Assembly: GCF_002846365.1 (NCBI RefSeq)
Contig: NZ_PJMW01000002.1
Coordinates: 992,001 to 1,056,000, forward strand
Origin: Nocardia fluminea
GTDB lineage: Bacteria > Actinomycetota > Actinomycetes > Mycobacteriales > Mycobacteriaceae
Length of the DNA stretch: 64,000 nt
Direction of reading: 5' to 3'
Of this stretch, positions 7,594 to 17,489 are shown in pieces (position 1 is the first letter of the stretch; each line of letters begins with the position of its first letter). A model generated the notes under the pieces. That model was not told where the DNA came from. It made no database searches and worked only from the letters and a program-made list of their open reading frames with translations. Position numbers and translations under genes: made by a program.

Positions 7594-8682
7594 TTATCCG
7601 CGGCGCGTGGCGACCGCGTCGGCCAACCGGTCGAGCTGGGTGGCGGTGGTGTTCCAGTCGATGCACGCGTCGGTGATGGACTGGCCGTAGGTCAGGTCGG
7701 CGGCCTTACCGAGGGTCAGATCCTGGCGGCCCGCGACGAGGAACGACTCCAGCATCACGCCGACCACGCCCTGCTCGCCGCCGGCGATCCGGTCGGCGAT
7801 GTCGGTGACGACATCGACCTGCTTGTTGTGGTCCTTGTTGCTGTTGCCGTGGCTGGCGTCGACGACCAGGCGCTGGGCCAGCGACGACTTCTCCAGGCGC
7901 AGCTTGGCCTCGGCGCAGGACGCGGCGTCGAAGTTGGTGCCGTTGCTGCCGCCGCGCAGGATCACGTGGCAGTCGGGGTTGCCCGAGGTGCGGATCAGCG
8001 CGGAGCGGCCGTCGAGGTCCGTGCCGGGGAAGACGTGGCTGGCGGCGGCGGCGCGCACACCGTCGACCGCGACCTGCACGTCACCGTCGGTGCCGTTCTT
8101 GATGCCGACCGGCATCGACAGCGCCGAGGACAGCTGGCGGTGTACCTGGCTGGCGGCGGTGCGGGCACCGATCGCGCCGTAGGAGACCAGGTCGGCGATG
8201 TACTGCGGGGTGATCGGGTCGAGGAACTCGCACGCGACCGGCAGCCCGAGGGCGGTGATGTCGACGAGCACCTTGCGGCCGATGCCGAGGCCGGTGTTCA
8301 CGTCGAACGAGCCGTCCAGGTGCGGATCGTTGATCAGACCCTTCCAGCCCAGCGTGGTCCGCGGCTTCTCGAAGTACACGCGCATCACGATGTGCAGCCG
8401 GTCGCTCAGCTCCTCGGCCTTCTCGGCCAGCTTGCGGGCGTATTCCAGCGCGGCGGCGGGGTCGTGCACCGAGCACGGGCCGACGATCACCATGAGGCGG
8501 TCGTCGTCGCCGTTGAGCACGTCGATGGTGGCCTTGCGGCCGGAGCGCACGGTGTCGGCGAGGTCGTCGGTGATCCGGTGGACCATGCGGACCTCGGCGG
8601 GCGAGCGCAGCGGGCTCACGCTGAGGGTGCGCTGGTCGTCGAGATCGGAATGCCGCGAATCGACATCAACTGCGGTGGTCAT
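7594..8682 (-). CDS. aroG: 3-deoxy-7-phosphoheptulonate (DAHP) synthase, type I AroFGH
   Basis: 362 residues. It condenses phosphoenolpyruvate and erythrose-4-phosphate in the first step of the shikimate pathway. Type I signatures are VIVGPCSVHDP (about 69), MRVYFEKPRTTLGWKG, PVACEFLDPITPQYI, GARTAASQVHRQLSS, PVGIKNGTDG and VVDASHGNSNKDH, the last holding metal ligands. It is distinct from the type II enzyme typical of mycobacteria, so this may be a second, differently regulated isoenzyme. ATG 8682 is chosen because AAAGGA lies about 10 nt upstream; an in-frame ATG at 8718 has no such site. An aromatic leader peptide and three hairpins lie upstream (8688-8837), suggesting attenuation by Phe/Tyr/Trp supply. 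Confidence 0.95.
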   Translation of the reverse strand: MTTAVDVDSRHSDLDDQRTLSVSPLRSPAEVRMVHRITDDLADTVRSGRKATIDVLNGDDDRLMVIVGPCSVHDPAAALEYARKLAEKAEELSDRLHIVMRVYFEKPRTTLGWKGLINDPHLDGSFDVNTGLGIGRKVLVDITALGLPVACEFLDPITPQYIADLVSYGAIGARTAASQVHRQLSSALSMPVGIKNGTDGDVQVAVDGVRAAAASHVFPGTDLDGRSALIRTSGNPDCHVILRGGSNGTNFDAASCAEAKLRLEKSSLAQRLVVDASHGNSNKDHNKQVDVVTDIADRIAGGEQGVVGVMLESFLVAGRQDLTLGKAADLTYGQSITDACIDWNTTATQLDRLADAVATRRG

Positions 8683-8687
8683 GAGAT

Positions 8688-8756
8688 GTGGGTCCTTTGC
8701 GTTAAGAGGCCGACCCACGGAAATCGCTACCGTCGAGCCGGGCGTTATCCGGCTCG
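8688..8756 (-). promoter_or_regulatory. putative attenuator / RBS-sequestering hairpins of the DAHP synthase leader
   Basis: Between the leader-peptide stop and the DAHP synthase start there are two perfect inverted repeats. CGAGCCGG...CCGGCTCG (8734-8756, 7-nt loop) comes first in the transcript, then GACCCAC/GTGGGTC arms at 8712-8718 and 8688-8694. The second hairpin's 3' arm begins inside the ribosome-binding site AAAGGA (8693-8698), so folding would hide translation initiation. A third hairpin, CCGGCCC/GGGCCGG (8789-8807), lies inside the leader reading frame. Alternative pairing controlled by ribosome position is inferred. Confidence 0.6.
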
Positions 8757-8768
8757 AGGTGGAGGAAG

Positions 8769-8837
8769 TCAGCGCGCAGGGTCGCAGACCGGCCCACCCA
8801 GGGCCGGATAGCTAAACCAAAAATATGCGCGCTGCAT
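8769..8837 (-). CDS. aromatic-rich leader peptide upstream of DAHP synthase
   Basis: A 22-codon ORF whose codons 5-10 read YFWFSY, that is Tyr, Phe, Trp, Phe, Ser, Tyr. Such clustering of the three aromatic end products ahead of the first shikimate enzyme is the classic layout of a ribosome-stalling attenuation leader. The start appears leaderless: a TACAGT -10 element (8845-8850) lies exactly 7 nt before the ATG, so transcription would begin at the start codon. A 7-bp hairpin (8789-8807) overlaps the 3' half of the ORF, and 86 nt separate its stop from the DAHP synthase start. I recall an aromatic leader described for a Corynebacterium DAHP synthase gene; that was not checked. Confidence 0.72.
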   Translation of the reverse strand: MQRAYFWFSYPALGGPVCDPAR

Positions 8838-8999
8838 GCCGTGGACTGTACCACCGGTGAAACGCCGGACGGTGAGCCATGGTTGCCCGACGTGTGGACC
8901 GTCACATCGAGCCCGCCACCGAACCGGCGAACAGCCGATGGCTCGGCCGGCCCGCGCGCATCTTCGCGCAGCGGGTGGCCGAGCACGCACGCCGGTCGA

Positions 9000-9470
9000 T
9001 CAGTCCCACTGACCGGGGACGTAGTCACCGGCGGGGGTGTGGGCGATGGCGTTGAGCCGGTTCCAGGCGTTGATCATCGCGATGGCGGCGATCAGGGCCG
9101 CGATCTGGTCGTCGTCGTAGTGCTTGCGGACCTGGTCGAAGGTGTCGTCGGAGACGTGGCCGCCGTCGGCGGTGCGGGTCGCTTCCTCGGTGAGGGCGAG
9201 GGCGGCCCGTTCCGCCTCGGTGAAGACGTTGGTCTCCCGCCAGGCGGCGACCAGGTTGATCCGCACCGAGGTCTCACCCGCGTGGGCGGCGTCCTTGGTG
9301 TGCATGTCGACGCAGTAGCTGCAGCCGTTGATCTGCGAAGCCCGGATCTTCACCAGTTCGTGCGTGGACTTGGGCAGCGGCGAATCGTCGATGACCTTGC
9401 CCGCCATGCTCATTCGCTTGCTGAAGCTCGTGGTGATGGCGTTGCCGTAGAGGTTGAAGCGCGCTTCCAT
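9000..9470 (-). CDS. carboxymuconolactone decarboxylase / AhpD-family protein
   Basis: 156 residues. The core motif INGCSYCVDMHTKDA around residue 55 supplies the C-x-x-C plus downstream His of the AhpD/CMD family, whose alkylhydroperoxidase members reduce peroxides through the vicinal cysteines. The C-terminal block INAWNRLNAIAHTPAGDY is typical of the YcdB-like CMD subgroup. AAGGAG lies 5 nt before ATG 9470, so the longer frame to 9530 is rejected. An ECF41-type promoter (9503-9529) precedes it, pointing to control by the sigma factor at 2642-3541. A short hairpin (9529-9549) lies between this gene and the SDR gene upstream. Confidence 0.88.
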   Translation of the reverse strand: MEARFNLYGNAITTSFSKRMSMAGKVIDDSPLPKSTHELVKIRASQINGCSYCVDMHTKDAAHAGETSVRINLVAAWRETNVFTEAERAALALTEEATRTADGGHVSDDTFDQVRKHYDDDQIAALIAAIAMINAWNRLNAIAHTPAGDYVPGQWD

Positions 9471-10586: not shown

Positions 10587-13500
10587 TCAAGACTGCGCCA
10601 GGACTTCTTCGTCGGTCATCGCGGCCACTTCCAGATACATCGTGGCGACGAGTTCGAGCCTGCCCGTCTCGCCCGCCGCCTGTTCCCGCTCGAGCATCCG
10701 CCCCGCCAGCGCGCCGACGCTGCGCGCGGTGAACAGGTCGGCCACGACGGTGTCGGGAGCGTCGAGCCATTCGCGGATGCGGGCCACCGCGGTGGTGGCA
10801 AGCACCGAATCACCACCGAGGGCGAAGAAGTCGTCGGTGACGCCGATCCGTTCGGCCGCCAGCACCTCGCCGACGACCGCGGCCAGCGCACGTTCCAGAT
10901 CGGTGCGTGGCTCGACGAATTCCGCCGCGGTTTCGCTCTTCTCGAGGACCGCCCGGATGGCCTTGCGGTCCGGCTTCGCGTTCGGGGTGAGCGGCAGTTC
11001 GGGCAGCAGTTCCAGGTGCGCCGGCACCATGTAGGACGGGACCAGGTCGGCGGTGGCGGCGAGCACGGCGTCGACGCGCAGGGTGGTGCCGGGGGTCGGC
11101 ACCACCAGGGCGACCAGCTTCGGTGCGGCCTTTCCGACCACCGCGGCCACCGCGTGCCGAACACCGGGGACGGCGCGCAGGGCGCTCTCCACCTCGCCGA
11201 GTTCGACCCGGTAGCCCCTGATCTTGACCTGATGGTCGGCGCGGCCGAGGAACTCCAAACCGCCGTCGGGCAGGTAGCGGGCCAGGTCACCGGTGCGGTA
11301 CCAGCGCAGGCCCTCGTGCGTGACGAAGCGGTCGGCGGTGCGTTCCGGGTCGTTGCGGTAGCCGGCGGCCACGCCGTCCCCACCGATCCACAGCTCACCG
11401 CTGACCCAGTCGGGGCAGTCGTTGCCCGCCGGGCCGACGACGCGGCACCGCACGTTGCGCAGCGGGGTGCCATAGGGCACGGCGGTCCACTCGGCGGGGA
11501 CCCGCCCGTCGACGACCTCGCAGATGGTGGAGTGGATCGCGGTCTCGGTGGCCCCACCGAGACCGGCGAAACGGCTGTGCGGGGCCACGGCGGCGAGGCG
11601 CGCGGGCAGTGCCACGTCGACCCAGTCGCCGCCGAGGATCACCGCGCGCAGCGAGGTCAACGGCGCGGCGGCGGTCGGTTCGGTGGGCGAGTCGCCGACG
11701 GCCTGCGCCGAGCCGAGGGTGCTCGGAGCGGCGGTGAGCAGCATGTCCAGCAGGCTCGGGACGCAGTTGAGCATCGAAACCCGGTGGCGGCGAACGAGTT
11801 CGACCCAGACGGCGGGGTCGGTGCGCTGCGCGTCGTCGACGGTGACCACCGCACCACCGGCGGCGAGCAGCCCGAAGATGTCGAAGACGGAGAGGTCGAA
11901 TTCGACGGCGGACAGGGCGAGCGCGCGGTCGGCCGGGCCGAGTCCGAAGCGTTCGTTGAGGTCGTCGATGGTGTTCATGGCGGCGCGGTGCGGTACCTCG
12001 ACGCCCTTGGGCTTGCCCGTGGAACCGGAGGTGAACAGCATGTAGGCGATGTTCTCCGGATCGCCGAAGACCGGGCGGGTCAGCGGTTGCGCGTGGGTGC
12101 GAGCCTGCGCGAGGTCGATCGCGCGAACATCCGGAATCCGCGCCCCGCCGACGGTGAGCACGGCGAGCGCGCCCGCGGTGCCGAGGATCTCGGCGCGACG
12201 GGCGGCGGGCTGATCGAAGCCGATCGGCACGTACACCGCACCGGCGGCGAGCACGCCGAGCACCGCGACGATCTGGTCGGGGCCCTTCGGAAGCTGTACC
12301 GCGACCGAATCACCGGGTGCCACACCGGCTTCCCGCAACGCACCGGCCACAGCCAGCGCGTCGGCGGCCAACTCGCCATAGGTCAGCTCACCGGCGGTCT
12401 CCCACAGCACCGCGGGCGCGGCGGGATTCGTGGCCGCGTTCGCGAAGAACCCGGTGTGCAGCAGCCCGCCGCTCACCGGACCGGCCGTGGCGTTGACGCG
12501 CGCCCGAGTAGCGGCCTGCTCCACCGGAATTCGCACTCCGGCCTCGGCCTGCCACCCCGCACCGCCGGCGAAGCGTGGGTCCCCGCCGAGACGTTCGATC
12601 GCTTCGATGTAGCGGGTGAACATGGCGTCCACCACGCCCGCGGGGAAGGCGGATTCGCGAATGTCCCAGTTCAGCAGCAGACCGCCGCGGACCTCGGTGA
12701 TCTGGGCGTCGAGGAGGACCTGCGGGCCCTGGGAGATGATCCAGACGGGATCGCCGAAGGTGTCGGTGACGGTGTCGGGGAAGAGTTCGCCGAGGTTGAG
12801 GGCGCTGGTGTAGACGATGGGCGCCAGGACCGGTTCGCCGCGGTGACGGCCGAGGTCGCGCAGGACCTCCAGGCCCGAGTACGCGGAGTGCGCGCCCGCC
12901 TCGTGCAGGCGTTGCTGGAGGGCGCGGGCGCGGTCGGCGACGGTGGCGGGCTCGGTGACGTCGACTTCGAGGAGCACCGAGGAGGTGAAGTCGCCGACGA
13001 CACCGTCGACCTGCGGGTGCACCGGTTCACGGTGGAACAGCGGCAGATTCAGCAGGAAGCGGCGCTGGGCCGACCAGCCGCCGATGGTTTCGGCGAACAC
13101 CGAGGCCAGCGCCATGGCCGGGGTGATGCCGCGGGCGTGCGCGGCGTCGAAGACCTGCGCCTTGGCCTGCGGGGAGAGCCAGTGGTGCAGACGGATCGTG
13201 CGGTTCGGATCCGAAATGTGCTGGGCCAGCGGAAGTTCCGGCGCGCCGGGCAGCTCGCTCAGGCGTTCCTGCCACCAGGCGCGGTCACGGGCGCGTTCGT
13301 CGGCGAGGGTGGCCACCGTGCCCGGCCGGCCGGCCGCATCGGACTGTGGTGCGCCGCTGTCGCGCTGCTCGGACAGGTACTGACGGAAGGTGTAGTCCTG
13401 CGGTGGGAGCTGTTCGCCGTGGTAGAGCCGGGCGAGGTCGGTGATGAGGATGCGGTAGCTCATCGCGTCGGCGGCGAGCATGTCGACATCGAGGTGCAGG

Positions 13501-14357
13501 CGGGTGCGGCCGCCGGCGAGGCGGGTGAGCGCGATGTCGATCACCTGACCGTCCTCCACCGCCATCCGCTGATGCGTCCGCGCGCCGCGCAATTCCTCCA
13601 GCCGCCGCTCGGCCTCGTCGGTGGAGGCCTCGCGCAGATCGGTCACGCCGAACACCGCGCGGCCGGGCCGATCGAGGGTCTGCTGGGTGCCGTCGGGCAG
13701 AAACCGGGTGCGCAGCATGGGATGGCGCGACAGCAGTTGCTCGACCGCCCGCTCGAGCCGCTCGGGATAGACGTCGGCGCCGTCGAATTCGACGTACAGA
13801 TGTGCCGCGACACCGCCGAGTTCCTGCGCGTCGGACCGGCCGATCCAGTACGCGTGCTGCATGGGCGCGAGCGCGAAAGGGGTGCCGTCGTCGGGAACGA
13901 TCGGGGTTTCGCTCGCGGACGTGTCGGCCTCGCCGACGGCCGGGTGGACGACAGCCGGGTTGGCGACAGCCGGGTTGGCGACAGCCGGGTCGGCGACGGC
14001 CGAGTCGGCGACGGCTGGGGCCGTGACGGCTGGGGCGGTGACGACCGAGTTGCCGACGGCTGGGTCGACGACGGCCGGGTCGGCGACGCTTGCCGGGAGG
14101 TCCTCGGGGTCAGCCCCGTTGAGGAGGGCGTACCAGGCGTCGACCGTGGGGTTGGCGGCCAGCAGGGCGAAGTTCACGGCGATGCCGCGTTTGCGCCAGC
14201 CGCCCGCCAGCTTCATCGTGCGGATGGAGTCCAGGCCCAGCTGGATAAGATCGTCGGCCTCGGCGACGGCCTCGGGGGTGATGTCGAGATGGCGGGCGAT
14301 CGCGGCACGGATCTCGGCGCGGTCGATCCCGGCGCCGCCTGCGGGTGCTGTCTCCAT
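10587..14357 (-). CDS. mbtB: MbtB-like non-ribosomal peptide synthetase (ArCP-Cy-A-PCP)
   Basis: 1256 residues. An N-terminal aryl carrier protein carries its phosphopantetheine Ser at 44 ([14 protein letters not shown]). A repeat linker (about 88-142) leads to a heterocyclization domain with the Cy motif DMLAADAMS (about 290). Then come an adenylation domain ([11 protein letters not shown] near 779, [24 protein letters not shown] near 1024, [15 protein letters not shown]) and a C-terminal PCP ([11 protein letters not shown], Ser about 1182). No thioesterase follows. By analogy with mycobactin MbtB and nocobactin assembly, salicylate is loaded on the ArCP and condensed and cyclized with Ser/Thr to a hydroxyphenyl-oxazoline; residue specificity is inferred. 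It is divergent from the salicyl-AMP ligase gene across an IdeR-like box. Confidence 0.88.
13932..14096. repeat. 15-bp tandem repeat (about 11 copies) inside the NRPS linker
   Basis: Degenerate 15-bp units such as GACAGCCGGGTTGGC run in frame through the NRPS gene and encode a Val-Ala-Asp/Asn-Pro-Ala pentapeptide repeat at residues about 88-142. It joins the aryl carrier protein to the cyclization domain. Several adjacent units are identical or differ by one base, indicating recent slippage expansion. Confidence 0.85.
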
Positions 14358-14431
14358 CTGCCGATCACTCCTTGCTCGCCGCCCAGCCGGGACGGATTCG
14401 GTACTGCCCGGCGGCAGCCTACTCCATTGAG

Positions 14432-14450
14432 ATAGGGTTGCCTAACCTTT
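14432..14450. promoter_or_regulatory. IdeR/DtxR-like iron box between divergent siderophore genes
   Basis: ATAGGGTTGCCTAACCTTT matches about 14 of 19 positions of the IdeR consensus (TTAGGTTAGSCTAACCTAA). It lies 75 nt before the NRPS start and 33 nt before the salicyl-AMP ligase start, where it could repress both genes when iron is sufficient. Confidence 0.75.
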
Positions 14451-14482
14451 GCAAGTGTAGCGAGACTCGAGTGAGGCAGTAC

Positions 14483-16120
14483 GTGACGTCGACATCGGCA
14501 ACCGGCCACCGCGAGGGCTACGTCCCCTTCCCCGAAGCCGCCGCGCGGGAGTACCGGGCAGCGGGCTACTGGACCGGCCGCACGCTCGGCGACCTCCTGC
14601 GCGACACCGCGCGGACCCAGCCACAGCGGCCCGCGGTGCTCAGCGACGCCGGTGCGCGAAGCTACGCCGAACTCGACGCCGCCGCTGACCGGATGGCGCA
14701 CGGGCTGCTCGCCCTCGGCATCAATCCCGGCGACCGCGTGATCGTGCAACTGCCGAACATCCCCGAGTTCGCGACGGTGCTGTTCGGTGTGCTGCGCGCC
14801 GGGATCATCCCCGTCCTCACGTTGCCCGCGCATCGCCGCGCCGAGATCGAGCACCTGGCCGCGTTGTCGGAAGCGGTCGCCTATCTCATCCCCGACCGCC
14901 TCGGCGACTTCGACTACCGCGAGCTGGCCACCACGGTGGCGCAGGCCGTACCCGGCCTGCGCCACGTGCTGGTAGCGGGCGATCCGGGCACACAGGACGG
15001 CGGTACCGCCGGGTTCGTAGCCCTGGATTCGGTTGCCCGCGACGGTGATTCGCTGCCCGCGATCGACCCGTCCGACATCGCGGTGATGCTGGTCTCCGGC
15101 GGCACCACCGGCCTGCCCAAGCTGATCGCGCGCACCCACGACGACTATGTCTACAACGCGACCGCCAGCGCGCGGGTCTGCGAGCTCACCCCCGACGACG
15201 TCTACCTCACGACACTGCCCGCGGCACACAACTTTCCGCTGGCCTGCCCCGGCATCCTCGGCACCGTCGCGACCGGCGGCGCCATCGCCTTCACCCTCGA
15301 CCCGAGCCCCGAGGCCGCCTTCGCCGCGATCGAGAAGCACCGGGTGAGCGTCACCGGCGTCGTGCCGCCGCTGGCCCAATTGTGGAGTGCGGCAGTGGAT
15401 TGGGAGGACGCCGAGCTGAGCTCGTTGCGACTGCTCCAGGTGGGCGGTGCGCGACTGGCGGAGGTGAACGCCCGCGATGTCGAGCCCGCGTTGGGGTGCA
15501 CGTTGCAGCAGGTGTTCGGGATGGCCGAGGGGCTGCTCAACTACACCCGCCTCGACGACGACAAAGAACTGGTGTACACCACCCAGGGCCGGCCGCTCTC
15601 CCCCGCCGACGAACTGCGCGTCGTCGACGCCGACGGTAACGATGTCGCCCAGGGCGAAGAGGGCGAACTGCTCACCCGCGGCCCCTACACGCTGCGCGGG
15701 TATTACCGTGCGCCCGAGCACAACGCGCGCGCCTTCACTCCCGACGGCTTCTACCGCAGCGGCGACCTCGTCCGCCAGCTGCCCAGCGGCCACCTCGTCG
15801 TGAGCGGCCGGATCAAAGACGTGATCAACCGCGGCGGCGAGAACATCTCCTGCGACGAACTCGAGGAGCACCTGCTCGCCCACCCCGCCGTCCGCCATGC
15901 CGCCGCGGTCGGCCTGCCCGATGCCGCACTGGGCGAAAAGGCCTGCGTGTTCCTGGTAGTCACGGGCGAGCTGCCGACCCTCGGCGAGATCAAGACCTTC
16001 CTCACCGAACGCGGCCTGGCCACCTACAAGCTGCCCGACCTGATCCGGCAGGCGGACATCTTGCCGATCACCGCCGTCGGCAAGATCGACAAGAAGGCGC
16101 TGCGCCTCTCCGCGACCTAG
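14483..16120 (+). CDS. mbtA: salicyl-AMP ligase (MbtA/EntE/DhbE-type)
   Basis: 545 residues. It activates salicylate with ATP and loads it onto the aryl carrier protein of the adjacent NRPS. Motifs are SGGTTGLPKLIARTH (P-loop, about 205-219), the aryl-acid ligase signature LPAAHNFPLACPG, QVFGMAEGLLNYTRLDD, YRSGDLVRQLPSGHLVVSGR, IKDVINRGGENISCDELE and the C-terminal catalytic lysine in GKIDKKALR. GTG 14483 has GAGG about 8-10 nt upstream; GTG 14471 is an alternative adding four residues. It is preceded by the shared IdeR-like box and converges with the salicylate synthase gene. Confidence 0.93.
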   Translation: MTSTSATGHREGYVPFPEAAAREYRAAGYWTGRTLGDLLRDTARTQPQRPAVLSDAGARSYAELDAAADRMAHGLLALGINPGDRVIVQLPNIPEFATVLFGVLRAGIIPVLTLPAHRRAEIEHLAALSEAVAYLIPDRLGDFDYRELATTVAQAVPGLRHVLVAGDPGTQDGGTAGFVALDSVARDGDSLPAIDPSDIAVMLVSGGTTGLPKLIARTHDDYVYNATASARVCELTPDDVYLTTLPAAHNFPLACPGILGTVATGGAIAFTLDPSPEAAFAAIEKHRVSVTGVVPPLAQLWSAAVDWEDAELSSLRLLQVGGARLAEVNARDVEPALGCTLQQVFGMAEGLLNYTRLDDDKELVYTTQGRPLSPADELRVVDADGNDVAQGEEGELLTRGPYTLRGYYRAPEHNARAFTPDGFYRSGDLVRQLPSGHLVVSGRIKDVINRGGENISCDELEEHLLAHPAVRHAAAVGLPDAALGEKACVFLVVTGELPTLGEIKTFLTERGLATYKLPDLIRQADILPITAVGKIDKKALRLSAT

Positions 16121-16127
16121 GTCCAGA

Positions 16128-16162
16128 CCTGGGCGCCGGCTCAATTCACGTCGGCGCCCAGG
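16128..16162. terminator. hairpin between convergent siderophore genes
   Basis: CCTGGGCGCCG pairs perfectly with CGGCGCCCAGG across a 13-nt loop, between the stops of the salicyl-AMP ligase (16120) and the salicylate synthase (16167). Confidence 0.7.
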
Positions 16163-16166
16163 GCCG

Positions 16167-17489
16167 TCAAGCCTTGTATGCCTTGACCACGTAAGGGGCG
16201 ACGCTACCGAGCTTCTCGCAGGTCTCCTCGAACTCACGCTCGGGACGCGACTGCCCGACGATCCCGGCGCCTGCGCGCAACCACGCGCCCTCGCCGGTCT
16301 GGTAGATCGCCCGCAGGACCAGCGTCGCCTCGAGCGCGCCGGTCGGCGAAACGCAGACCACCGCACCGGAGTACAGCCCACGCGGATCGTGATCGTTGCG
16401 GAACACCGAGTCGACGCCCGCGCGCTTGGGGATGCCGGAGGCGGTCACCGAGGGGAACAGCACCTCGAGCGCGTCCCACGCGGTGCGGTCGGCGGCCAGG
16501 GTGCCGCGCACGGTGGACGCCAGGTGCTGCACGCTGCCGCGCTCGCGCACGGCCATGAAATCGGACACCGCGGACGTGCCGGGCACGGCCACCTCCGCGA
16601 TCTCGGCGAAGGAGGTCTGCACCGAGATCGCGTGCTCCACGATCTCCTTCGGATCGGCGAGCAGATCGGCGCGGGCGGCGTCGTCGGCCTCGGCACCGAG
16701 GCCGAATGCCCGCGTACCCGCGAGCGGTTCGGTGGTGACGATGCGATCGTCGTCCACCGAAGCCACCAGCTCGGGGCTGAAGCCGGCCGCTTCGAGCCCA
16801 CCCAGCCGCAGCAGGAACGAGCGGGCGGGCGTGTTGTTGGCCCGGCCGAGGCGATAGGTCGCCGGCACGTCCACCGGGAACGGCAGGTCGACTTTGCGCG
16901 ACAGAATCACCTTCTGGTAGCTGCCGGAACGGATTTCGGCGACGGCCGTGGCCACGCGCTCTTCGTAGTTCGTCGGGTCGGCGCGCACGTCGATCGGGGT
17001 CGGAACCGGCAGATCCATATCCTGCGAGCCGGCGATCAGGTCATGGATGTCGCACGCCTCGCTGGGGGTGGCGCCGCTGATCCGCACGCCGGTGGCGTCG
17101 ACGCGCACCTCGATCCGCGGAATCATCAGGTGCGCCAACGAGGTCAGCGGATTGAGATAGTGGGTCGCCGACAGCGAGTAGGCGCAGAATTCGAAACCGA
17201 TCCAGCCGTAGGCGTTGCGGCCGTCGAGCGGCAGGCCCGCCAGCGCGGCGTCGATGGCCGTGGCCGGGCTGCCGGTCCAGGCGCGCGCGGTGGTCTCACC
17301 GTCCCAGGTGGTGCGTAACTCACCGGCGTCGAGTTCCACGCTGCCGAGCGGATCGGCGGCGAACACCCAGACACCGGGCTGTTCGTACATCACGTACTCA
17401 CCGAATCGATCAGAGACGGCCAGACGTGACATTGCTGCCGCCGGGTCGGTCACGTACTCCACCCGCACGGGCTGTTCCGTCGACGACAA
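16167..17489 (-). CDS. mbtI: salicylate synthase (MbtI/Irp9/NbtS family)
   Basis: 440 residues, chorismate-utilising enzyme. The N-terminal half is variable; the C-terminal chorismate-binding domain carries YQKVILSRKVDLPF, FLLRLGGLEAAGFSPELV, VTTEPLAGTRAFG, DPKEIVEHAISVQ (metal-binding Glu), VQHLASTVRGTL, FPSVTASGIPK and GLYSGAVVCV. The family converts chorismate through isochorismate to salicylate and pyruvate in one active site. The start is the rare TTG 17489, supported by GGAGG 4 nt upstream; a GTG lies 7 codons later. Two IdeR-like boxes (17498-17545) immediately upstream imply strong iron repression. N. farcinica NbtS is the established functional counterpart. Confidence 0.94.
   Translation of the reverse strand: MSSTEQPVRVEYVTDPAAAMSRLAVSDRFGEYVMYEQPGVWVFAADPLGSVELDAGELRTTWDGETTARAWTGSPATAIDAALAGLPLDGRNAYGWIGFEFCAYSLSATHYLNPLTSLAHLMIPRIEVRVDATGVRISGATPSEACDIHDLIAGSQDMDLPVPTPIDVRADPTNYEERVATAVAEIRSGSYQKVILSRKVDLPFPVDVPATYRLGRANNTPARSFLLRLGGLEAAGFSPELVASVDDDRIVTTEPLAGTRAFGLGAEADDAARADLLADPKEIVEHAISVQTSFAEIAEVAVPGTSAVSDFMAVRERGSVQHLASTVRGTLAADRTAWDALEVLFPSVTASGIPKRAGVDSVFRNDHDPRGLYSGAVVCVSPTGALEATLVLRAIYQTGEGAWLRAGAGIVGQSRPEREFEETCEKLGSVAPYVVKAYKA

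Follow-up and report, generated by a model that had tools for sequence, protein, structure and literature searches.

What controls the type I 3-deoxy-7-phosphoheptulonate (DAHP) synthase of Nocardia fluminea, and could a short open reading frame (ORF) ahead of its gene be the sensor of that control? The question arises from a 64-kb stretch of the genome (contig NZ_PJMW01000002.1, positions 992,001 to 1,056,000), hereafter the window, in which a 22-codon minus-strand ORF rich in aromatic codons directly precedes the enzyme gene. Comparison with related genomes makes it highly probable that this ORF encodes a leader peptide controlling the DAHP synthase gene, and likely that the locus is an aromatic-sensing, ribosome-mediated attenuator acting on initiation of DAHP synthase translation. 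The sequences suggest that a ribosome pausing on the leader would refold the RNA and expose the start signal of the enzyme when aromatic amino acids are in short supply. Transcription attenuation is what amino-acid leader peptides are chiefly known for; this conserved case seems to control the start of translation of the committed aromatic step. The features at the centre of the argument are these:

8769..8837, minus strand: leader ORF of 22 codons, MQRAYFWFSYPALGGPVCDPAR, with ATG at 8837-8835 and TGA at 8771-8769; frame kept in 147 of 148 distinct sequences
8808..8825, minus strand: putative regulatory codons TAT TTT TGG TTT AGC TAT (Tyr, Phe, Trp, Phe, Ser, Tyr); all 142 leaders anchored on Trp-Phe carry YFWF or a near match to it
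8845..8850, minus strand: -10-like box TACAGT, 7 nucleotides 5' of the leader ATG, suggestive of a leaderless layout; all 142 parsed leaders have TANNNT 6-8 nucleotides ahead of the start
7594..8682, minus strand: putative regulated gene, type I DAHP synthase of 362 amino acids; TIGR00034, E 8.1e-147

The leader stop is separated from the DAHP synthase ATG (8682) by 86 nucleotides, and the closest named relatives of the enzyme are from Nocardia (L009, N. xishanensis, 91% identity). The original prediction, made from the window alone, had placed a 22-codon aromatic ORF ahead of DAHP synthase, and the coordinates, the codons and the TIGR00034 match bear this out. Only two runs of four aromatic residues occur over all six frames of the window, and a start codon followed by such a run within ten codons and by a stop within 25 codons is found once, at the leader ORF itself. 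Five neighbouring ORFs seldom use its aromatic codons, TTT making up 1 of their 61 Phe codons and TAT 7 of their 46 Tyr codons. A chance ORF was rejected on this window-wide rarity of aromatic runs, together with the recurrence of aromatic mini-ORFs ahead of DAHP synthase loci described below. Thus, a cluster of codons for the end products of the pathway lies in a short ORF that is predicted to be translated, and this ORF lies directly 5' of DAHP synthase, as in an attenuator. A leaderless start is suggested by the TACAGT box (8850-8845), which lies 7 nucleotides before the leader ATG; scanning 8500-9100 for promoters of the Escherichia coli type gave no site. At the type II DAHP synthase of the same genome, no aromatic mini-ORF was seen within the approximately 400 nucleotides inspected.

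If the leader is functional, it would be expected to persist in relatives. An alignment of 55 leader regions, to which the genus contributes 26, served to build a covariance model (R1). The DAHP synthase gene is present in 148 of 150 genus genomes; model R1 matches 146 of 148 genus genomes searched, with one match each, and the only two that it misses (G054, G109) also lack the enzyme gene. The matches point, in these 146 genomes, to a small gene missing from the annotation and to a regulatory RNA that has no Rfam match. Of the matches, 145 were compared with the position of the enzyme (G141 was left out), and all lie on its strand, ending -5 to 87 nucleotides from the enzyme match. In an order-level sample the model matches 62 of 298 genomes, some of them weakly. 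Five genomes with two copies of the enzyme were looked at, and in each one copy is without such a leader (L148, L149, L150, L191, L245); further two-copy genomes exist in the genus.

Individual leaders were parsed from 154 upstream regions using a Trp-Phe anchor, with preference for starts preceded by a TANNNT box, which yielded 142 leaders. The remaining 12 are two second copies (L191, L245) and 10 related leaders lacking Trp-Phe (L232-L238, L241-L243). Outside the 154 are the window itself (L081) and the second copies without a leader (L148-L150), and the named loci L003-L007 were inspected but not counted; two gene starts (L208, L209) are placed too early both here and in the masked folding described below. 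Tyr accompanies Trp-Phe in all 142 leaders, so that the part of the original prediction that named all three aromatic residues holds, whereas the second Tyr of its Tyr-Phe-Trp-Phe-Ser-Tyr cluster recurs in just 3. The TANNNT box stands at exactly 7 nucleotides in 128, the start codon is ATG in 63 and GTG in 79, and the aromatic codons are TAT (142) and TAC (12) for Tyr, and TTT (155) and TTC (125) for Phe. The distance from TGG to the TGA stop takes eight values over the 148 distinct sequences and stays in frame in all except L193, while the stop-to-gene spacer and the 3:4 loop (see below) have lengths in all three phases; between the TGG codon and region 2 of the RNA (GGCCC), 0 of 55 aligned rows are gapped. 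A frame kept through changes of length, at a fixed spacing from TGG to region 2, is the pattern of a translated frame held at a set distance from an RNA arm. The prediction was to be abandoned if relatives lacked the frame or the aromatic codons within it. That outcome was not found: named Rhodococcus and Amycolatopsis loci, like those of the genus, carry the frame with its aromatic residues, the hairpins and the -10-like box.

The RNA itself, beyond the peptide, also seems to be under selection, because a CAGCG arm near the start of the leader is kept even where it is shifted by one base against the frame. Of 160 sequences, 133 have this arm at base 4 and 7 have it at the base after, while 19 lack it in the first 16 nucleotides. 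Base conservation in excess of that of the peptide would also suit a protein- or metabolite-binding RNA element, or a leader peptide acting in trans, with the aromatic codons incidental; a trp leader peptide of Sinorhizobium meliloti is reported to act in trans (PMC7298713). Such an explanation is nevertheless very improbable. Rfam models gave one chance microRNA match in 8500-9100 (16.9 bits against a cut-off of 100) and 0 matches at gathering threshold in 18 related loci, and a known RNA family (T-box, riboswitches or others in Rfam) was accordingly rejected at these loci. Moreover, of the 80 type I DAHP synthase loci that match best (L001-L080), 44 have an aromatic mini-ORF in the stretch from 350 to 30 nucleotides upstream of the enzyme match, where shuffling gives 1.45. 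These are 15 actinobacterial and 29 proteobacterial loci, and include SYFWYFSYDSSLAAGG in Bradyrhizobium and FYFWYYGFPMPLAEEG in Xanthomonas; many are of very different sequence, as would not be expected were the aromatic codons incidental.

How, then, might the leader reach the enzyme gene? Eight RNA segments between the leader start and the enzyme ATG, listed in order of transcription, are proposed to take part:

8826..8834, minus strand: helix 1, 5' arm, CAGCGCGCA, codons 2-4, complementary to 8770-8778; CAGCG core conserved in most relatives
8801..8807, minus strand: region 2, CCGGCCC, able to pair with 2' in a local hairpin or with region 3; never gapped after TGG in the 55 rows
8789..8795, minus strand: region 2', GGGCCGG, forms the leader hairpin as its 3' arm; paired in 96.6% of cells over 55 sequences
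8770..8778, minus strand: helix 1, 3' arm, TGCGCGCTG, spanning the leader stop; complementary at 9/9 positions
8746..8762, minus strand: region 3 with extension, CCACCTCGAGCCGGATA, predicted to pair with region 2 (on) or 4 (off); 3:4 paired in 96.8% and the 2:3 core in 76.8% of cells
8730..8741, minus strand: region 4, CCGGCTCGACGG, predicted to pair with region 3 (off) or 5 (on); 4:5 paired in 88.4% of cells, 17/20000 arm swaps as good
8708..8720, minus strand: region 5, CCGTGGGTCGGCC, predicted to pair with region 4 (on) or 6 (off); from pairing and arm-swap tests
8688..8694, minus strand: region 6, GACCCAC, arm of the Shine-Dalgarno hairpin, overlapping the last two bases of AAAGGA; from complementarity and cross-genus covariation

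Three hairpins of 100% complementarity are formed by these segments: the leader hairpin (8789-8795/8801-8807, 7 bp), the middle hairpin (8733-8741/8749-8757, 9 bp) and the Shine-Dalgarno hairpin (8688-8694/8712-8718, 7 bp). All three had been foreseen as perfect repeats, the middle one at 8734-8756 rather than 8733-8757, and the last does reach into the ribosome site as claimed, for its stem begins within AAAGGA (8698-8693) and covers the final two bases of that motif along with the spacer toward the ATG. Folding of the RNA of the locus gives -71.9 kcal/mol, where shuffles average -55.2 (z score -4.17), and 0 of 200 shuffles equal it. Two further pairings are available. The first joins leader start and leader end (8826-8834/8770-8778) as helix 1, which may keep an untranslated leader in the off form. 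In the second, 8794-8810 of the leader faces 8746-8762 on the 5' side of the middle hairpin (82% complementary over 17 nucleotides); this pairing competes with the leader hairpin and with the middle one, and so provides the mutually exclusive pairing that the mechanism requires.

The attenuator is accordingly proposed to alternate between an off form composed of 2:2', 3:4 and 5:6, and an on form composed of 2:3 and 4:5. Transcription would begin at the first base of the leader and the leaderless ORF would be translated immediately, so as to sense the supply of charged Tyr-, Phe- and Trp-tRNA. A ribosome paused with Tyr5, Phe6 or Trp7 in its A site would have its leading edge at about the start of region 2, leaving this region largely free to pair with region 3; region 4 would then pair with region 5, and region 6 and the Shine-Dalgarno sequence would be released for synthesis of the enzyme. 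With sufficient aromatics, the ribosome would cross region 2 and continue to the stop, whereupon 2:2', 3:4 and 5:6 would form and close the ribosome-binding site. We infer from this arrangement the stalling, the direction of the response, the leaderless start and the identity of the on-helix.

The helices differ in how strongly comparative data support them. Percentages of paired cells were taken from alignment A1 (55 sequences, MAFFT; L239 was left out, and L240, of mycobacterial type, was dropped from the representatives). Because region 6 shifts by indels, an alignment-free arm-swap test was chosen, in which duplex energies of cognate arms are compared with those of arms exchanged between genomes over 20000 swaps. 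The 75 sequences used (L275 was left out) include 26 from the genus, 30 others that are Rhodococcus-like and include the named Amycolatopsis and Pseudonocardia loci L008, L010 and L011, and 19 from an order-level search, of which one belongs to the family of the window and 18 to a single family, probably the one of Amycolatopsis given their similarity to L008 and L010.

The Shine-Dalgarno hairpin 5:6 is well supported across genera by these comparisons. Its cognate arms average -13.81 kcal/mol against -11.49 when swapped, and 0/20000 swaps are as good; by subset, as-good swaps number 2/20000 in 11 diverse sequences, 0 in the 19 and 38 in the 30. On A1 it has 19 double-change cells against 7.7 in shuffles, none of 500 shuffles being as high. 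At 8688-8718 there is thus a conserved helix that would occlude the ribosome-binding site of the enzyme gene, as judged by covariation across genera and not within the genus alone. The competing helix 4:5 is moderately supported, with the 17 as-good swaps listed above for all 75 sequences, 0 in the 19 and 249 in the 11 diverse sequences. Helix 2:3 is weakly supported (1067/20000 overall and 91/20000 in the 30 non-genus representatives), and covariation of its extended form was sought in all 56 representatives and not found (11051/20000). As-good swaps number 9627/20000 overall and 306 in the 30 for 3:4, and 7212/20000 overall and 50 in the 19 for the leader hairpin. The control pairings 2':4 and 2':6 gave no signal (17007 and 19015 of 20000).

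Covariation at the ribosome site bears directly on the output of the sensor. The same leader could instead cause premature transcription termination, either with 3:4 as an atypical terminator lacking a U-run or through Rho acting on untranslated RNA, as has been reported of aroR-aroF of Corynebacterium glutamicum, whose aroR is described as transcription attenuation in passages of a review. Terminator-like sites, taken as a stem followed by a T-rich tail, were scanned from leader to gene (without L275), or after the leader for the mycobacterial-type, other actinobacterial and proteobacterial sets. They follow the leader in 8/11 mycobacterial-type loci (0.0 in shuffles), 4/8 other actinobacterial loci (0.2) and 28/29 proteobacterial loci with an aromatic ORF (1.1), and lie between leader and gene in 5/49 Rhodococcus-like loci (0.4; this set includes one Amycolatopsis), L193 among them, and 1/21 Amycolatopsis-like loci (0.2). 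In the genus itself, however, 0/90 loci carry such a site (0.2 in shuffles), so the U-run terminator of the classical trp type is lacking there. An intrinsic terminator at the window locus was rejected on this count together with its absence from 8500-9100, where the missing U-run had already been pointed out. A pure terminator would, moreover, have no use for the covarying ribosome-site hairpin. Termination is therefore an improbable output for the window locus, while control at translation initiation, ventured only as a cautious guess in the original prediction, is favoured by the cross-genus covariation of the Shine-Dalgarno hairpin and the absent terminators, and is quite probable.

One locus of the same family, L193, combines both kinds of element. 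Seven T's directly follow 3:4, giving a canonical terminator, and its Shine-Dalgarno hairpin arms are likewise in place; the leader stop comes earlier, with the conserved CGCTGA out of frame. By its sequence, L193 is possibly an intermediate between the terminator and translational outputs.

Terminators accompany the sensor mostly outside the lineage, and the covarying ribosome-site hairpin is found inside it, which indicates that the output differs by lineage. By a slight preference, a single aromatic leader sensor on DAHP synthase is taken to have swapped its output, using terminators in proteobacteria and mycobacterial-type loci and, in the group of Nocardia, Rhodococcus and Amycolatopsis, a Shine-Dalgarno hairpin reached through a longer relay from a leaderless ORF that reads Tyr, Phe and Trp. 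These loci would let termination and translation be compared as alternative outputs of one sensor across a natural set of lineages.

Folding with a stalled ribosome gives a further view of the proposed switch. The ribosome was modelled as a mask with its leading edge 13 nucleotides past the first A-site base, in 56 representatives and with shuffled spacers as control. The mean cost of opening the RNA from the Shine-Dalgarno sequence to the AUG is 4.90 kcal/mol with Tyr and 5.29 with Phe in the A site, and rises to 7.98 at W+2, 6.98 at W+6 and 7.26 at the stop, with shuffled spacers at 5.4-5.8 throughout. The resulting shift of 2.31, against 0.16 in shuffles, is positive in 49/56 representatives (24/26 of the genus and 25/30 others) and exceeds the 95th percentile of the shuffles in 27/56. 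For 52 non-genus leaders the mean cost climbs from approximately 4.0-4.7 before Trp to 7.8-9.1 after it, and for 90 genus leaders from 4.5-4.7 at Tyr/Phe to 6.2-7.1 just after Trp and 7.5 with the ribosome at the stop. The window itself has costs of 6.1 and 4.7 at Tyr/Phe, 7.1 at W+2 and 9.8 at the stop, and its 5:6 occupancy is 0.61-0.69 at Tyr/Phe against 0.99 at the stop. On average, then, modelled folding shifts in the expected direction, but the window is a poor example of it, and its own sequence weakly supports a switch.

Several results weigh against the proposed alternation. Among the comparative data, the leader hairpin and 3:4 are nearly invariant on A1, where 5:6 is paired in only 65.4% of cells; 5:6 does not covary within the 26 genus representatives (3361/20000 swaps as good), because its arms hardly vary there, nor does 4:5 in the 30 other representatives (11991/20000). 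In the masked folding, the opening cost of the 90 genus leaders falls back to 5.4-6.5 for stalls beyond the position just after Trp, and that of the window is again 4.7 at W+6. At equilibrium, with the ribosome at Tyr/Phe, the window retains the leader hairpin (0.97-0.99) and 3:4 (0.99), with 2:3 and 4:5 at 0-0.01, and its on-state lies 5.4 kcal/mol above its off-state. The 26 genus representatives show hardly any change in mean 5:6 occupancy, 0.49-0.50 against 0.55 at the stop. When structures are forced, 2:3 with 4:5 lies above the leader hairpin with 3:4 by a mean of 3.4 kcal/mol in the genus and 1.8 in the others, and is at least as stable in just 5/26 and 11/29, respectively. Equilibrium energies omit the co-transcriptional order of folding and the melting of the leader hairpin by the ribosome, and thus neither prove nor exclude the relay.

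These same energies favour another on-state, in which region 2 pairs directly with region 5 over an intact 3:4, sensor and output being unchanged. With the ribosome at Tyr, 2:5 reaches an occupancy of 0.30 in the genus and 0.52 in the others, against 0.17 and 0.19 for 2:3, and 2:5 with 3:4 is at least as stable as the leader hairpin with 3:4 in 13/26 genus and 20/29 other representatives. Regions 2 and 5 do not covary, however (17117/20000 swaps as good, against 17/20000 for 4:5), and on this ground 2:5 was rejected as the conserved on-helix; as the route to the on-state it is a possible but rather unlikely choice. The relay through 2:3 and 4:5 is marginally the more credible course.

Near the DAHP synthase, at 10587-17489 of the window, the gene neighbourhood includes a non-ribosomal peptide synthetase gene with condensation, AMP-binding and carrier domains, together with two ORFs judged by eye, one resembling an AMP ligase and lying on the other strand, the other resembling a chorismate-binding protein. 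This neighbourhood looks like a salicylate-type siderophore cluster, which would consume chorismate. The leader is also of relevance to the engineering of shikimate-derived compounds in producers of this lineage.

Among known systems, transcription attenuators of the E. coli trpL type combine regulatory codons in a short ORF with mutually exclusive helices. The Nocardia leader shares the short ORF with its putative regulatory codons and, as proposed, the exclusive helices, and differs in lacking a U-run terminator and in its proposed output at translation initiation. Translational attenuators of the ermC type respond to a ribosome stalled in the leader ORF by a change of helices that uncovers a Shine-Dalgarno sequence further downstream. 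The Nocardia leader would likewise stall a ribosome and free a downstream Shine-Dalgarno sequence by a helix shift, but its stall would result from amino acid shortage rather than a drug, and one extra alternating pair would stand between sensor and ribosome site.

Actinobacterial leaders have been surveyed before, and those of trp are described in PMC1262725 and PMC8079986. Passages of the former (Seliverstov et al. 2005) state that no conserved RNA structures were found ahead of actinobacterial phenylalanine/tyrosine operons, and report T-boxes of ileS with hairpins that sequester the Shine-Dalgarno sequence. Eight leaders are given in passages of a Streptomyces lividans survey, none aromatic except two with Trp (PMC8079986), and those of a Corynebacterium diphtheriae survey give trp, ilvB and leu leaders (PMC5784534). 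The closest counterpart is aroR-aroF of C. glutamicum, an aromatic leader peptide attenuator ahead of a DAHP synthase gene (Neshat et al. 2014, as presented in parts of PMC11802643 and PMC4046766), in which ribosome stalling raises expression. As far as the descriptions allow comparison, that leader carries Phe-Tyr-Phe, acts by transcription attenuation and responds to Phe and not Tyr, unlike the Nocardia leader with its Tyr, Phe and Trp, its lack of a terminator and its covarying Shine-Dalgarno hairpin; a passage of one other paper terms aroR a translational regulator (PMC7356990). Aromatic leaders are thus already known. No report of this element was found among the top-ranked matches in the open-licence full-text literature, and the translational form with a Shine-Dalgarno hairpin relay appears to be new. 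A parallel in manner of control comes from related bacteria, the mycobacteria, whose leaderless cysteine-responsive short ORFs (Canestrari et al. 2020) are cited in part of PMC13236596 as translation attenuators of biosynthetic genes. Both are described or proposed as leaderless, amino-acid-specific short ORFs that control translation, with the mycobacterial ORFs reading cysteine and the Nocardia leader the aromatic amino acids.
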